A stretch of DNA of 47,504 nucleotides from Methanobacteriota archaeon (lineage in GTDB: Bacteria; Myxococcota; UBA727; JABDBI01), in the NCBI GenBank assembly GCA_013288705.1, contig JABDBI010000012.1:1-47504 (forward strand), written 5' to 3'. The first letter of the stretch is position 1; each line of letters opens with the position of its first letter. The translations under genes and the position numbers were made by a program. Below the pieces are notes generated by a model. That model ran no database searches and was not told the origin of the DNA. It was given only the letters and a program-made list of their open reading frames with translations. Below, one piece after another: positions 1,068 through 23,648 of the stretch.

Positions 1068-1493
1068 ATGGTTGAGGTGCTAGGAGCGCAGCGGGTTGAT
1101 CGGTTTCTAAATGAGCTCGGTTGGCAACATGATAAAGTGGCGGAAGGTGTTGTACGTGCCCGATATACCGGTCATTTTGGTGAGGTGAAGGTTATCCTGC
1201 AGATAGGAGAGGGTGGGCTGCATATGGCGATTAACCCCATCCTTGCCAAGCCTCAGGCAGGATGGAGTCGCTCTGTTTTTCGACTCGTGGAAATGCTGAA
1301 TCGTGAAACGCATCTGATCCAGGTAGGGCTTGATCGAGATGGTGATATCTTCGTAAAGGTAGATGTGCCAAAGGGCGATATCGAGTTTGAGCAGTTTGTT
1401 TACGTGATTTTCAACCTCTGTCAGGTTTCCGAGCAGCTCACAGTACCCGTGCTGCAAGCGCAGGCCTACGATACCTTTGCTGCACGCGCTTAG
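1068..1493 (+). CDS. YbjN-like / type III secretion chaperone-fold protein
   Basis: This 141-residue protein has no signal peptide or membrane segment. The pattern (N-terminal helix with FLNELGW, alternating strands with ILQIGEGGLHMAINP, a long helix RLVEMLNRETHLIQVGLDRDGDIFVKVDVP, then an acidic helix) resembles the YbjN/T3SS-chaperone-like fold. That assignment comes from pattern recognition, not a search. GGGGG lies 7 bases before the ATG. Its stop overlaps the stop of the convergent A-type carrier by 4 bases (TTAG). The function is unknown; YbjN-like proteins are often associated with stress or motility effects, which cannot be read from this sequence. Confidence 0.6.
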   Translation: MVEVLGAQRVDRFLNELGWQHDKVAEGVVRARYTGHFGEVKVILQIGEGGLHMAINPILAKPQAGWSRSVFRLVEMLNRETHLIQVGLDRDGDIFVKVDVPKGDIEFEQFVYVIFNLCQVSEQLTVPVLQAQAYDTFAARA

Positions 1494-1897
1494 AGGGAAA
1501 AGGATTCACCGCAGGAACAGTTTTTTGCTGCCTGGGGGTTTTTGAGGGAAAACCCTTTGCGTTGCATTGAATCGTGCCAATCGAGTAGTGAACCACCAAT
1601 CAATTTGAGCGATTTCGGATCCACGCAGATCTGTGCGCCAAGGGATTGAAAAATATGGTCATTTGGCTTTGCAGCGGGTTCAATCGCAAAATGGTAACTA
1701 AAGCCTGAACAACCCCCACCGATGACGCCTACGCGCAGGAGCCCTTCTGGTTTCGATTCTTGTAGGAGCAGCTCTGAAATGCGCGCGGCAGCAGCTTCGG
1801 TGATATGGACTTGATCTGCCGGGATCTCAGCCGCGGGTAAAGACAGCGCTGTTCGCTGCGACATGTTATTTTTCTTGCTGATTGCGAGAAGGCTCAT
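1490..1897 (-). CDS. A-type iron-sulfur carrier (HesB/IscA/ErpA family)
   Basis: Carrier that passes Fe-S clusters or iron to target apoproteins. The three conserved cysteines are visible: one in GGGCSGFSY and two in the C-terminal CSCG, with the family's usual flanking IcVDPkSL strand. The protein is 135 residues. The start at 1897 overlaps the stop of the upstream desulfurase (ATGA), so translation is probably coupled. A second possible start is Met12 (1864), which would give 124 residues, nearer the usual family length, but it has no clear ribosome binding site. No IscU scaffold, ferredoxin or HscAB gene is next to it, so whether it acts as IscA, ErpA or SufA cannot be decided here. Confidence 0.9.
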   Translation of the reverse strand: MSLLAISKKNNMSQRTALSLPAAEIPADQVHITEAAAARISELLLQESKPEGLLRVGVIGGGCSGFSYHFAIEPAAKPNDHIFQSLGAQICVDPKSLKLIGGSLLDWHDSMQRKGFSLKNPQAAKNCSCGESFSL

Positions 1898-3018
1898 TTG
1901 GGCACCAATACCCAGTTTATACCAAACTCTTTGATTTCTTCCAATGTATTAAACCGGCCTATGCCAAACCGAATGGATGCGTTGGCGAGATCATCAGATA
2001 GGCCGATGCCCTGCAGTACATGACTTGCCGAAGCACTTGCTTGCATGCAGGCAGCACTTGTGGACACAGCCAAAGATGGGCCAATTGCCAGCATGATTTC
2101 TTCTGCTGGGAGTCCGGGAAACGCGACATTGAGGTTACCAGCGACGCGTCGTTTGAGACAGCCATTTACCACACAGTGCGGAAACACTTCGAGGAGCTGT
2201 TTGTGCAGCGCTTCTCGCAGTAACAATATGCGTGCGGTTTCTGTTTCACGCTTTTGCATGGCGATAAGCACCGCTGTGCCAAGGCCGACAATGCCAGGTA
2301 CATTGAGTGTACCAGAGCGAAATCCAAACTCCTGTCCTCCGCCGTGTTGAAGCGGCTTGAGCAGAGAGTTAGCCGCATTCCGAATGTAGAGTGCTCCGAC
2401 GCCTTTAGGGCCATAAATTTTGTGAGCGGTAAAAGACATCAAATCGACGCCAAGAGTATCGACATCGATAGGTAATCGTCCAAGACCTTGCGCTGCGTCA
2501 CAGTGAAAGAGAATGCCATGTTCTTTTGCCAGTGCGCTAATTTCTGCGATTGGGTTGATTGTTCCAATTTCGTTGTTCACCAGCATGAAGGACAGCAAGA
2601 TCGTATCTTGTCGAATGGCCTCCGTAATTTTTGCTATTTCGATTAACCCAGCTTGGTTTGGGCGCAGATAGGTTACAGAGAACCCTTCATCCTCAAGCGC
2701 TCGACATGTGTCCAAGACCGAACTGTGCTCGATTTGTGAAGTGATAATATGGCGACCGACGTGCGCGCGCGACATGCAACCACTCTTGACCGCGAGATTG
2801 TTCGATTCCGTGGCGCCGGAGGTGAAAATAATTTCCTTGGGATGACATCCAAGGCATTCGGCGATTTGCCGACGTGCTTTTTGTACGGCATCCCTTGCTT
2901 GGTAGCCAAGTAAATGCTTGCTGCCGGGGTTGCCAAATGCGCCCGTCAAAAATGGCATCATCGCGTCTAACACGATGGGATCGAGTGGCGTCGTTGCGTG
3001 GTTATCTAAATAAATCAA
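1894..3018 (-). CDS. Cysteine desulfurase, IscS/NifS type
   Basis: PLP enzyme that takes sulfur from cysteine for Fe-S clusters and thio-modifications. The 374-residue protein starts with MIYLDNHATTP, the NifS/IscS opening. Visible active-site residues are His98 (IEHSS), Asp174 and Gln177 (DAAQ), the PLP lysine Lys200 (TAHKIYGPKG) and the mobile-loop Cys324 (STSAACMQAS). The loop differs from the usual SSGSAC but keeps the Cys. It is the first gene of a two-gene minus-strand unit with the A-type carrier (ATGA overlap). It lies divergent from a second, more distant desulfurase with only 60 bases between the two starts. Confidence 0.93.
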   Translation of the reverse strand: MIYLDNHATTPLDPIVLDAMMPFLTGAFGNPGSKHLLGYQARDAVQKARRQIAECLGCHPKEIIFTSGATESNNLAVKSGCMSRAHVGRHIITSQIEHSSVLDTCRALEDEGFSVTYLRPNQAGLIEIAKITEAIRQDTILLSFMLVNNEIGTINPIAEISALAKEHGILFHCDAAQGLGRLPIDVDTLGVDLMSFTAHKIYGPKGVGALYIRNAANSLLKPLQHGGGQEFGFRSGTLNVPGIVGLGTAVLIAMQKRETETARILLLREALHKQLLEVFPHCVVNGCLKRRVAGNLNVAFPGLPAEEIMLAIGPSLAVSTSAACMQASASASHVLQGIGLSDDLANASIRFGIGRFNTLEEIKEFGINWVLVPK

Positions 3019-3078
3019 CGTTGCACCCTCATGGTCTCGCGGCTAATGCTATTATCGTGCTTATCAGAAGGAGCACCA

Positions 3079-4239
3079 ATGAACGACGTCTATCTGGATA
3101 ACGCCGCTACGAGTTTTCCTAAACCTGAGATAGTCTATCAGGCGATTGAGGCTTTTATGCGACGTGGCGGAGGGAGTCCTGCGCGAGGCAGTTATAGTAA
3201 AGCGCAAGAAGCGGAACGCATTGTTGTGAAGCTCCGCTCCAAACTATCGCAACTGCTTGGCTCTCGTGATCCTTCTCGTTTGATTTTCACTCCAAATTCT
3301 ACCGATGCGATTAATCTCGCACTCAAAGGGTGGCTGCAAGACGGGGACAACGTCGTCGTTACGAACTTGGAACATAACGCCGTACTTCGCCCGCTTTGGG
3401 GGTTAAAGCGATCAAGAAACATAACGGTCGCTGTTGTGAATGCGAATTCACGAGGAGAAATTAATCCTGATGATCTGGCGAAAGCAATCACTCCGAAAAC
3501 AAGGCTTGTGGCGTGTGTGCATGCCTCCAATGTGCTGGGTACTATACAGCCAATACACGAGATCGCTCGGCGGACGCGTGAGCTTGGTATTCCGTTGCTC
3601 GTCGATGGCTCGCAAACAGCTGGTGCTTATCCAGTCAATGTAGAAGAATTGGGTGTCGATATGTTTGCGTTTACTGGCCACAAGAGCTTACTTGGCCCAA
3701 CGGGAACTGGCGGGCTCATTGTTCGAGCTGGTCTAGATCTTGTGCCGCTGCGTGAGGGGGGAAATGGAACGCACTCGGATAGCCTTGAGCAACCCACCAC
3801 CTGGCCAGAACGCTATGAATCTGGAACACCAAATATATTCGGCCTTGCCGGACTACTTGCTGGCGTCGAGTATGTTCAGAGGACGGGCGTGGAAGCGTTG
3901 CATGCGCACGAAGTGAATTTAAATCGTACGTTGATGGAGCAGCTGAAACAAATAGATGGTGTGACAGTGCATGGGCCGGAGGCAGAAGCCAAAGTGGCGA
4001 TTACGTCAATCAGTTTCAAAATGCTCGATGCGGCGGAGGTTGGTCAGATGCTTGGGAAGAAGTTTGGTGTGATGGTTCGCACTGGTCTCCATTGCTCTCC
4101 TCTTATCCATCAGACAATTGGCACCAAGGATCAGGGCACGGTTCGTTTTAGCATTGGTTGGTCTAATACCTTGGACGACGTGCATCGTGCTGTTCAAGCA
4201 GTGCGTGAGATAGCTGGCTCGATTTATGGGAGAAAATAA
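3079..4239 (+). CDS. Cysteine desulfurase-like class V aminotransferase (EGC-type subfamily)
   Basis: The start at 3079 is supported by AGAAGGAG five bases upstream and by the opening MNDVYLDNAATSFPKP, which is typical of the cysteine desulfurase family protein group; the longer frame from 3031 has no such support. In this 386-residue protein His100 (LEHNA), Asp177 (VDGSQ), the PLP lysine Lys202 (TGHKSLLGPTG) and Cys339 (RTGLHCSPLIH) are all present. The Cys context RTGLHC, rather than a long IscS loop, is what sets this subfamily apart. Its stop codon shares one base with the start of the MetRS-like gene (TAATG), so the two are likely co-translated and may act together. The sulfur acceptor is unknown. 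Confidence 0.88.
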   Translation: MNDVYLDNAATSFPKPEIVYQAIEAFMRRGGGSPARGSYSKAQEAERIVVKLRSKLSQLLGSRDPSRLIFTPNSTDAINLALKGWLQDGDNVVVTNLEHNAVLRPLWGLKRSRNITVAVVNANSRGEINPDDLAKAITPKTRLVACVHASNVLGTIQPIHEIARRTRELGIPLLVDGSQTAGAYPVNVEELGVDMFAFTGHKSLLGPTGTGGLIVRAGLDLVPLREGGNGTHSDSLEQPTTWPERYESGTPNIFGLAGLLAGVEYVQRTGVEALHAHEVNLNRTLMEQLKQIDGVTVHGPEAEAKVAITSISFKMLDAAEVGQMLGKKFGVMVRTGLHCSPLIHQTIGTKDQGTVRFSIGWSNTLDDVHRAVQAVREIAGSIYGRK

Positions 4240-5771
4240 TGAAGCGTCACTTTGTGAGTGCTGGTTGGCCCTATCTTTATGACATCCCTGGGCTGCACAA
4301 TTGTGTTCCGATGCTATTTGCTGACGTGTGTGCGCGCTTTTACCGTCTCCAGGGAGATGAAGTATTTTTTCTATGTGGTGCCGATGAGCATGGTGCCCGT
4401 ACCGAATATGTAGCCTCCGGCTATGGCATAACGCCGGCTGAGCTTTTGAATGCAAAATACGACGCGACATTGCCACTTTTGGCGAAGTTGGATCTTTCTT
4501 TTGATACGTTTGGCCGCACGGGGGATCCCTTTCACGTCACATTTGTGCAAGATTTTTTGAAAGAGCTCATTCAAACTGAAGTTCTTGTGACAGCAAAACA
4601 GAAAGTAGCTTGGTGTGGGCAGTGTAGCCGTCATCTTCCCGATCGCTTTTTAGAGGGCACTTGCCCATATTGCTCGGGAAAAACATATGGGAATCAATGC
4701 AACAACAAGAAGGATTGTGCGCGTCTCGTCGAATCAGAGCAGGTGATTGATGGGCGCTGTGCAGTGTGTGCTGGAAACATAGAATGGAAAGAAGAAGACC
4801 ATCTTTTCTTTCGTATGGATCTTTTTAAGGAGAAGCTTTACGCACTTTCTCAGTCTACAGATAAGCACTTTGCTGAAGTTCGCCAGCGCATACATCGCAC
4901 ACTCGATGAGACACCAAAAGTTTGTATCACACGTGACACCACGTGGGGCATTCCTGCGCCAGCTCTTGCTGGCAAAACAGTTTACTCATGGGTGGACTCG
5001 CTGCTAGCCAAAGTATCTATGCTTGCCAAGCTTGGGGGTGAATGGGAGCAAAAGTATTGGAAGGAAGCTGCAGTGGAACACCACTTTTTCCTCGGTATGG
5101 ATGGCACGCCTTTCTATGGTGCACTTTTTCCTGCTCTTTTGTCGGCGAGCCGAAGGAACTATTTTATCGATAATTGGAAGATATTACCCAATGAGGTTTT
5201 CATTTATGAAGGTGGAATTTGTTCCAAGTCTACTGGCACTGGCATTTGGTTAGAGGAGGCGCTGGCAACGCTTCCATCTGATTTTTGGCGATTCTATATC
5301 TTTTTTGTGCATGCCAATGTGGAGACCGGAGCAGAGCGTGATGTTGACTTTCGATGGGAGCGATTCTCGACGGCGATCAACGAGTGGGTGCTCAAGGGAT
5401 TCTCGGCTGCTGCAACCGCAAAGTCGGGTGCAAGTGGAATTGACGAGGAGAATGAAATAAGACGGTGTATGCAAGAGTCTCGCATCGGAGAGGGATTTAG
5501 TCTTTTAATCCGGTCTTTGGTTGAGCAGCCTTCCGAAGAAAAGACAAGATGTCTTGCGCCTATTCTGGAGTGCTTTCTTCCGCATTCGGGGCGTCAACTT
5601 GCGAAAGGACAGGTGCCTTTTACGATGGCGCCGCTTTATCATTCGCAGGTACAGATGGATTATCAAGATCGGGTTGATGAAAGACGAGCGCGGCGCAATT
5701 TGAGGGAGGAGATTATTGACGCACGCGCGGATGCTCTTTGTGTATGTCCGATCAACTTAAGTGAACAGTAG
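4239..5771 (+). CDS. Methionyl-tRNA-synthetase-like protein with degenerate HIGH motif
   Basis: Class I synthetase fold of the MetRS type, 510 residues. Order: Rossmann start (VSAGWPY), ADEHG at 48-52, a zinc/knuckle insert with Cys126, 129, 142, 145, 154, 160, 174 and 177, WVDS at 251, FLGMDGTPFYG at 284-294 and CSKST at 328-332. A gap-free match to E. coli MetRS from memory puts GLHN (18-21) where HLGH should be, so the first His is lost. Methionine-pocket positions Leu13, Tyr260 and His301 become Trp10, Lys258 and Tyr293. The C-terminal part is short and lacks a clear anticodon-recognition pattern. It may be a MetRS paralogue activating another substrate, or inactive. It is coupled to the upstream desulfurase and its 3' end overlaps atpC by 20 bases. 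Confidence 0.82.
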   Translation: MKRHFVSAGWPYLYDIPGLHNCVPMLFADVCARFYRLQGDEVFFLCGADEHGARTEYVASGYGITPAELLNAKYDATLPLLAKLDLSFDTFGRTGDPFHVTFVQDFLKELIQTEVLVTAKQKVAWCGQCSRHLPDRFLEGTCPYCSGKTYGNQCNNKKDCARLVESEQVIDGRCAVCAGNIEWKEEDHLFFRMDLFKEKLYALSQSTDKHFAEVRQRIHRTLDETPKVCITRDTTWGIPAPALAGKTVYSWVDSLLAKVSMLAKLGGEWEQKYWKEAAVEHHFFLGMDGTPFYGALFPALLSASRRNYFIDNWKILPNEVFIYEGGICSKSTGTGIWLEEALATLPSDFWRFYIFFVHANVETGAERDVDFRWERFSTAINEWVLKGFSAAATAKSGASGIDEENEIRRCMQESRIGEGFSLLIRSLVEQPSEEKTRCLAPILECFLPHSGRQLAKGQVPFTMAPLYHSQVQMDYQDRVDERRARRNLREEIIDARADALCVCPINLSEQ

Positions 5772-21614: not shown

Positions 21615-23648
21615 CTATCTTCGCAAACGACTCATCAACGCCGCAAACGTATCAAACTTCAATGCTTGCGGCCCGTCACTCAGCGCCTTCTTTGGCTCCG
21701 GATGCACTTCGACGATAATTCCATGCGCACCAACGGCGAGGGCTGCCTCTGCCAGTGGTGAGATATATTGCCATGTGCCAGCAGCATGGGAAGGATCCAC
21801 AATGACTGGCAAGTGCGTGCGCTCTTTGAGCACGGGAACCGCTGACAAATCGAGTGTGCTGCGCGTTGCAGTTTCGAAGGTTCGAATGCCGCGCTCGCAT
21901 AAAATCACCCGCTGATTGCCATGTGCGAGAATATACTCCGCGGCGTTCAGCCATTCATCAATCGTCGACATGAGCCCACGCTTGAGCATGACCGGCCGAT
22001 CAATGGTGCCAAGCTCCTTGAGCAGCGAGAAGTTTTGCATATTACGCGCACCGATTTGAATAATGTCGGCTTTTTCTGCAACTCTCTTCACATCATTTGG
22101 ATGCATCACTTCAGTAATAATCGGCATCCCATATTGCCGCCCAGCTTCATAAAGCAGATCGAGCCCTTCATATCCCAAGCCCTGAAAGTCATAAGGCGAC
22201 GTACGCGGCTTGAACACGCCGCCACGCAAAATATCCGCCCCACATTCTTTGACCTTCTTGGCCACCGCCATGACTTGCTCCCGCGACTCCACCGAGCAAG
22301 GCCCCGCCATAATCACTGGCCGATCCCCCCCAATCACGACGTGCTGCACCTGAATCAGCGTATCTTCCACCCGCGTCGCCCGCGAAGCCAGCCGATAAGC
22401 TTTCTTCTCGAGCAACTTAATCGTCTCCGCCGAAATCTCCCTCTCCCCCCGTGGGAGAGGGATTAAGGGTGAGGGGGCAATCTCTGCACCCACCTGATTC
22501 CCCCCACCAGTCCTCTCCGGATAAGCCCCAAGCACCTTCAAATACTCCGTCAACCCCGCCAACTCTCGCAACGCCTGCGCAACCCCGTCATTCGCCAAAT
22601 TCCCCTGAAAATCAACATAAAACAAATAATGCCAAGGCACATTCGGCCTAGGCCTAGACTCGAGCTTCGTCAAATTCAACCCATGCGCCGCGAGCACATT
22701 CAGCGCCGACAACAGCGCCCCCTTCTCATCCCGCACGGCGAATATAATCGACGTCTTACACGCCACCCGCGCATCCACCGCTTCCACTTGCTTCGCCACC
22801 ACCACAAACCGCGTATAGTTATCCCGCTGGTTGGCAATATCGCGCTGAATCACATACAGACCAAAGTGCCTTGCCGCCTCTTCGCTCGCGACAGCTGCTT
22901 GCGAAAGATTGCGCTCCTCACGCACTTTCTGCACCGCCATCGCTGTATCGACGTAGCTCTCTACTTGACAATTCTCCAGGCCAGACAAAAACCGACTACA
23001 TTGTAAAAGCGCTTGTGGATGCGAGAGCACACGGCGAATCTGCGAAACATGCACTTCCTCAAGCGCCACTAAACAATGCTCAACCTTAAAAATCTCCTCG
23101 CCCACAACTTTTACGTCCATTTGTGCGAGCAGGTCGTATGCCTCATTGATAGAACCAGCAGTGGTATTCTCGACGGGCAGCATGCCATAATCCAATGCCC
23201 CATCACGCACAGCTGCCATCATGTCAGCGAACGTCTCGTATCCACGCAACTGTAGCGCCTTGCCCAACGATCCGAAGTGCTGCTTAGCAGCGAGTGAACT
23301 ATAGGCACCTTCGGTACCCTGATAGCCGATACGCAGCGCGCCTGCTTGTTCAGGAGGCACACGATCGCGAAAGCGTTCTTCTTGTATGCGTACAGAATGG
23401 TTCATGATGTCGCGGTAGAGTTTACCCACGAAGTAAGTATCTAGACCGAGATCACCGGCAAGCTCTGTGAGATGTTGCAAGACAGCAGTTTCGCGTAATT
23501 CATCGCGAATTTGTGGCGCGCTCTCATGCTTGGATTCAGCAATCTGCGCAACCAAGTTCTCTCGCTTGGCGAGCGCCTCAATGACCGCACGATCGGCTTG
23601 ATCTATCTCGGTGCGGAGTGTTTCGATTGTTTTGTTTTTCTGATTCAC
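21615..23648 (-). CDS. Chorismate mutase / prephenate dehydratase / ACT / DAHP synthase fusion
   Basis: A 677-residue fusion of the Phe branch with the first shikimate-pathway step. Order: AroQ chorismate mutase (about 1-90), prephenate dehydratase (about 105-285, TRF at 279-281), ACT domain (about 298-372, with GAL and LESRP motifs that bind Phe in P-proteins), a linker, and a type I-beta DAHP synthase (about 410-677, GPCSVES at 449-455, [15 protein letters not shown], and DPSHAAG). The linker (390-406) is built from an in-frame palindromic repeat. It starts with GTG after AAGGAG. It lies behind a Phe leader-peptide attenuator, so both transcription and activity are probably Phe-controlled. 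Confidence 0.93.
22434..22482 (-). repeat. Palindromic repeat, copy B, in the linker of the aromatic fusion gene
   Basis: A perfect 10-bp inverted repeat (TCCCTCTCCC, 22438-22447; GGGAGAGGGA, 22453-22462) is followed by TTAAGGGTGAGGG. Its reverse complement matches copy A at 12672-12717 through the CCCTCACCC flank and the palindrome, so the two copies lie in opposite orientation. It encodes [17 protein letters not shown] between the ACT and DAHP synthase domains. Confidence 0.8.

Follow-up and report, generated by a model that had tools for sequence, protein, structure and literature searches.

The 47,504-nucleotide stretch of DNA analysed here (the window) encodes a member of what is apparently an undescribed family derived from methionyl-tRNA synthetase (MetRS) and co-inherited with a cysteine desulfurase. 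The family, its pairing with the desulfurase and the remodelling of its synthetase scaffold are well supported, whereas the chemistry of the pair is put forward as a hypothesis. In line with the earlier note, which saw the pair as a strong candidate for an undescribed one, no previous description of it was found in the literature searched, which covers few subscription journals.

The two genes lie on the plus strand, as do all features located below by window coordinates unless stated otherwise. The upstream gene (3079-4239) encodes a 386-residue desulfurase of the TIGR01977 type and group II (SufS-like), and is preceded by a ribosome-binding site read from the sequence (AAGGAG, 3068-3073). 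The downstream gene (4239-5771) encodes the 510-residue MetRS-like protein, which matches Pfam tRNA-synt_1g with an E-value of 4e-81. Both open reading frames and the TAATG junction described in the earlier note are seen in the sequence: the stop codon TAA of the desulfurase gene (4237-4239) and the start codon ATG of the MetRS-like gene (4239-4241) have one base in common, and the ribosome-binding site, stop and start with their 1-nucleotide overlap are all contained in GGGAGAAAATAATG (4228-4241). The MetRS-like gene is translationally coupled to the desulfurase gene upstream, and the two apparently form one transcript. Divergent from the pair and 60 nucleotides off are an IscA-like gene and a gene for an IscS-like desulfurase (1490-3018, minus strand), which are absent as a conserved feature at the seven other loci described below. 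Elsewhere in the window, an open reading frame of 677 residues (21615-23648, minus strand) looks by eye like chorismate mutase, prephenate dehydratase and DAHP synthase joined in one protein.

With the MetRS-like protein as the single query, 85,000 species genomes were scanned, which yielded seven full-length relatives with 42-70% identity, in Myxococcota/Deltaproteobacteria, Planctomycetota and Obscuribacterales; as matching relied on exact short peptides, the scan undercounts relatives. Profile searches of phylum samples indicate that the family is rare (2/195, 2/392, 1/292, 1/379 and 1/284 genomes, where two of the five samples overlap and all matches are already known members). At each of the seven other loci, an orthologue of the desulfurase is found directly upstream on the same strand, at gaps of -4, -4, +1, +10, +16, +20 and +31 nucleotides. 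Counting the window, the co-occurrence that the earlier note proposed to test therefore extends to all eight loci and three phyla, and the desulfurase is the only gene shared, with no third gene common to the eight neighbourhoods. TIGR01977-type desulfurases are themselves of limited spread, being present in 10 of 189 genomes of the home phylum and 58 of 179 of Planctomycetota, with none of 14 control genomes scoring above the cut-off, and most of them occur without a MetRS-like partner. The invariable pairing, the limited spread of the desulfurase and the lack of any other shared gene rule out chance neighbours. Sequencing error or a single aberrant MAG is also ruled out, as the features are kept in eight independent genomes, although most genomes with the pair are MAGs. 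A phage- or plasmid-borne origin was considered and rejected: no relatives of the MetRS-like protein were detected in viral contigs, plasmid matches do not exceed 31% identity, and those read are ordinary extra metG genes or of the hydrazine type. The pair could not be assigned to an anti-phage system either, since the MetRS-like protein matches no PADLOC model and the desulfurase matches SspA/DndA solely as a family relative.

The MetRS-like gene is not the housekeeping metG. The genome to which the window belongs (1.63 Mb, 74% complete) carries a separate canonical metG that is truncated where its contig ends and in which the HLGH and KMSKS motifs are intact, and the MetRS-like protein misses every NCBIfam metG cut-off (261.5 bits against 587 for NF001100 and 245.1 against 336 for TIGR00398). 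Together, these observations exclude an ordinary or sole metG, as the earlier note had anticipated. An ordinary MetRS was also found by Pfam search in six of the seven other pair-bearing genomes. In the seventh, an Obscuribacterales MAG (G199), a canonical metG was not found and the only MetRS besides the family member is of the hydrazine type. At locus L045 of this MAG (1051-2679 and 2-1333, both on the minus strand), a MetRS-like gene lies beside lysine N6-hydroxylase-like and decarboxylase-like genes, an arrangement as in the hydrazine synthases.

In the tree, all eight MetRS-like proteins fall into a single clade (support 100/100) whose long stem measures 1.31 changes per site; this clade is sister to the archaeo-eukaryotic-type (class 1) MetRS (support 88/98) and apart from the cupin-associated hydrazine-synthase type, whose members form long branches. 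This separate position, and the absence of a shared cupin or N-hydroxylase gene, rule out membership of the hydrazine synthases. The paired desulfurases group together with support of 79/79, which rises to 99/99 once an unpaired Planctomycetota copy (L078) is included. The two gene trees are congruent at every resolved fork, from which we infer that the pair was inherited as a unit; judging from these sequences, it probably also moved between phyla as a unit. The unpaired TIGR01977 desulfurase L078 (G198:C33:1615-2730) comes from one of the pair-bearing genomes, and is possibly a duplicate or a relic of the ancestor.

Residues of the MetRS-like protein were mapped in a gapped alignment that included E. 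coli MetRS, numbered as the mature protein, together with 31 further proteins of the MetRS type. The alignment bears out the reading in the earlier note that HLGH (21-24 in E. coli) is replaced with G18-L19-H20-N21 (GLHN) while the DEHG block starting at Asp49, the SKS loop and eight cysteines are kept. GLHN is followed by Cys22 (together 4290-4304); L19-H20-N21-C22 are invariant in all eight members and G18 is present in seven, with Ala in L009 (ALHN). This alignment assumes no indel, and taking H20 as the first His of HIGH needs two compensating indels. In ordinary class I enzymes, the Gly at the position of H20 packs on adenine, so this severe alteration of HIGH puts ATP use by the protein in some doubt. 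Asp52 of E. coli MetRS holds the amino group of the substrate and Arg233 acts at the transition state. The former is represented by Asp49 (4383-4385), present in 8/8 members and at least 80% of the compared MetRS, the latter by Arg232 (4932-4934), kept in 8/8, and Trp253 by Trp251, which is also kept. The KMSKS-equivalent loop reads I-C328-S-K330-S (5217-5231): the first Lys is replaced by Ile327, C328 is found in 8/8 members against 0/32 comparison MetRS, and Lys330 (E. coli Lys335) is present in seven members, with Arg in L009. The eight cysteines (126, 129, 142, 145, 154, 160, 174 and 177) form a duplicated zinc ribbon (4614-4769) with the layout described for archaeo-eukaryotic MetRS (PMC2922099). 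The AF2 model of the protein (pLDDT 85.9, pTM 0.88), least certain at the C-terminal tail and the KMSKS loop, has human and P. abyssi MetRS as its best PDB matches.

The methionine pocket has been rebuilt. The three replacements noticed earlier, Leu13 by Trp10 (4266-4268), Tyr260 by Lys258 and His301 by Tyr293 (5115-5117; 8/8 against 0/32), all proved invariant in the eight members, as is S254. Lys258 lies on the segment W251-V-D-S254-L-L-A-K258 (4989-5012), of which W, D, S, L, L, A and K are invariant in 8/8, and neither K258 nor S254 is found in any of the 32 comparison MetRS. Further replacements with respect to E. coli are Ala12 by Gly9, Ala256 by Ser254, Pro257 by Leu255 and Trp305 by Phe297. 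Overall, the family has 47 fixed positions whose residue occurs in no more than 10% of the MetRS compared, and W10, H20, C22, S254, K258, Y293 and C328 are among the positions both changed and invariant in 8/8. A pocket altered yet invariant suggests a specific ligand.

The C-terminal helical domain (5343-5768) occupies the place of the anticodon-binding domain, retains one helix, the first, of the MetRS arrangement and, as the earlier note had suspected of the anticodon-recognition helix, is unlike MetRS: the equivalents of Asn391, Arg395 and Trp461 are missing. Past the first helix no homology to MetRS is detectable (hhalign E-values 0.036-0.22), and the domain has no Pfam match, with a sub-threshold TPR similarity in one member. 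Modelled alone (pLDDT 87), it finds no significant fold match in the PDB (best E-value 2.8; TM 0.34 to MetRS). The sequence supports a loss of tRNA-anticodon recognition, and an anticodon-binding domain is unrecognisable by either sequence or fold. Five cysteines, C22, C328, C445, C501 and C503, are present in 8/8 members of the family and 0/32 comparison MetRS. C22 is beside the HIGH site, C328 is in the KMSKS loop, and C501 and C503 fall in the last ten residues, as a C501-x-C503 motif in the tail RADxLCxCP (5739-5747) that is disordered in both models (pLDDT <50). As judged from the alignment, these cysteines, including the CxC tail and all absent from the earlier note, appear to be the strongest clue to sulfur chemistry, though they could bind metal instead.

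The partner desulfurase scores 444.3 bits against the NCBIfam cut-off of 377 for TIGR01977, a cut-off that all eight paired desulfurases exceed, and its closest solved chains are SufS-type desulfurases. The conserved active-site His99 (3373-3375), the PLP Schiff-base Lys202 (3682-3684) and the persulfide-forming catalytic Cys339 (4093-4095) are invariant in 8/8, and with these residues kept the enzyme is predicted to release sulfur from cysteine via PLP chemistry. Cys146 and other signatures mark the paired desulfurases, Cys146 being present in 8/8 and not in L078. Among the paired copies, L004:6854-7996 has about seven residues deleted just past the catalytic Cys, and L008:6847-8004 has a diverged N-terminus over its first 40 residues or so.

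We tentatively propose that the pair may well be a co-inherited two-enzyme cassette, in which a non-methionine carboxylate is adenylated and then thiolated by persulfide sulfur without tRNA. The MetRS-like protein would use ATP to adenylate an amino acid other than methionine at its carboxylate; Asp49 would hold the alpha-amino group of this substrate, and its side chain, as Lys258 in the pocket suggests, may be acidic. The desulfurase would draw sulfur from cysteine as a Cys339 persulfide and pass it on to its partner, whose flexible CxC tail would accept the sulfur and, together with C22 and C328 on the wall of the ATP site, bring it to the acyl-adenylate, yielding a thiocarboxylate or thioester-type product. 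A second Cys would resolve the disulfide in the manner of ThiI and MnmA, and tRNA would not be required. The layout resembles that of IscS with ThiI or MnmA, where sulfur likewise passes from a desulfurase to an adenylating enzyme of the HUP fold. The 8/8 pairing, the limited spread of the desulfurase family, the lack of any other shared gene, the congruent trees, the five cysteines, the adenylation residues, the intact desulfurase residues and the unrecognisable anticodon-binding domain speak for such a cassette. The altered HIGH, the Arg at K330 in L009, the low confidence of the tail and KMSKS loop, the possible use of the cysteines in metal binding and the many TIGR01977 desulfurases that lack such a partner speak against it. 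Ordinary MetRS transfers activated methionine to thiols (PMC5370406) and the MetRS-like PyrN hands activated glutamate, with no tRNA involved, to a small acceptor (PMC8664883), precedents that make a sulfur relay chemically reasonable. The more specific claim of a new class of sulfur-transfer enzyme, in which the synthetase domain is an amino-acid thiolase of a cross-phylum cassette, receiving persulfide sulfur from the desulfurase via the CxC tail and making an alpha-amino thioacid or its thioester free of tRNA, is a possibility that we hold to be rather doubtful. To our knowledge, few aminoacyl-tRNA synthetases act outside translation, and the known MetRS-derived ones make N-N bonds. If true, the cassette would represent a second way out of translation for a MetRS-derived enzyme, by a different chemistry, and would assign a role to one branch within the TIGR01977 desulfurases. 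Both proteins are short, and the sulfur-transfer reading predicts a substrate class, key cysteines and tRNA-independence.

The conserved desulfurase residues also bear on an unlikely, though credible, alternative, in which the PLP enzyme donates no sulfur to the product of the synthetase and instead prepares or modifies the amino acid, or acts on the aminoacyl product. It could supply alanine or a cysteine or cysteine sulfinate product, or act as SepCysS does after SepRS. The fold allows this, given a weak score of the desulfurase against Sep-tRNA:Cys-tRNA synthase models; Lys258 would fit an acidic substrate, and in Mycoplasma penetrans a MetRS with a fused aminotransferase makes its own methionine (PMC7694997). 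However, every member retains the persulfide-forming Cys339 and the loop around it, just as ordinary desulfurases do, and this reading leaves the cysteines newly present in the MetRS-like protein unexplained. Less probable still is a tRNA-free coupling of an amino acid to a small molecule by the MetRS-like protein, as in the hydrazine synthases, with the desulfurase confined to an accessory task, for instance supplying metal clusters. PyrN and Spb40 are similar in length and perform tRNA-free chemistry, but no cupin or lysine/ornithine N-hydroxylase is common to the eight loci, the hydrazine-type enzymes branch elsewhere in the tree, and the strict pairing argues for a direct role of the desulfurase.

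The near-complete class I catalytic domain and retained zinc ribbon would suit a protein that still charges tRNA, with an unusual amino acid; with the anticodon residues and a recognisable anticodon-binding domain missing, and no tRNA gene beside any of the pairs, we consider this improbable. Even less is to be expected of a non-catalytic protein, serving as a cysteine or sulfur sensor or as a desulfurase scaffold: such a role would accord with the loss of HIGH and of the first KMSKS Lys, yet Asp49, Arg232, Trp251 and K330 (7/8) are retained and the pocket is invariant. A selenium-based form of the pathway, in which selenocysteine would be the donor and which is brought to mind by the SclA selenocysteine lyase being the second-best NCBIfam model of the desulfurase (below cut-off) and by the link of TIGR01977 to selenium-dependent hydroxylases (PMC2276186), is very improbable and an obligate selenium link is unsupported, as selD scores above cut-off in just four of the eight pair genomes, the MAGs among which are incomplete, and not in the window's own. 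Three of the four selD matches, those of G197, G198 and G201, each contain a single in-frame TGA, which would fit a selenoprotein SelD.

Compared with known systems, the family shares with class 1 MetRS the catalytic domain, the duplicated zinc ribbon and the equivalents of Asp52, Arg233 and Trp253, and differs in the HIGH motif, the methionine pocket, the first KMSKS Lys, the anticodon domain, the five new cysteines and the presence of an extra metG in the genome. The cupin-associated MetRS paralogues are the hydrazine synthases PyrN, Spb40 and Tri28 (PMC2922099, PMC8664883); like the family, they are MetRS-derived enzymes that exist beside a housekeeping MetRS, have a dedicated partner gene and are likely tRNA-free, but their partners are a cupin and an N-hydroxylase rather than a desulfurase, and the sole annotated hydrazine-type example compared (L063) has HLGH and is without the family's five cysteines. 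With respect to the TIGR01977/EF2568 family, the upstream gene fully qualifies for membership and belongs to a sub-clade with a fixed MetRS-like linkage. The Mycoplasma penetrans protein likewise joins a PLP enzyme to MetRS (PMC7694997), though there a fused aminotransferase provides methionine for normal charging, whereas here the partner is a desulfurase and the pocket is not that of methionine. MshC, the mycothiol cysteine ligase, is also a tRNA-free paralogue of a class I aminoacyl-tRNA synthetase (PMC2922099), but it is derived from CysRS, makes an amide and has no desulfurase. By analogy, the pair may resemble IscS acting with ThiI or MnmA, where a desulfurase is likewise combined with an ATP-adenylating HUP-fold enzyme and a persulfide with a resolving Cys; ThiI and MnmA are PP-loop ATPases of tRNA thiolation, whereas the putative adenylating enzyme of the family is an aminoacyl-tRNA synthetase derivative.
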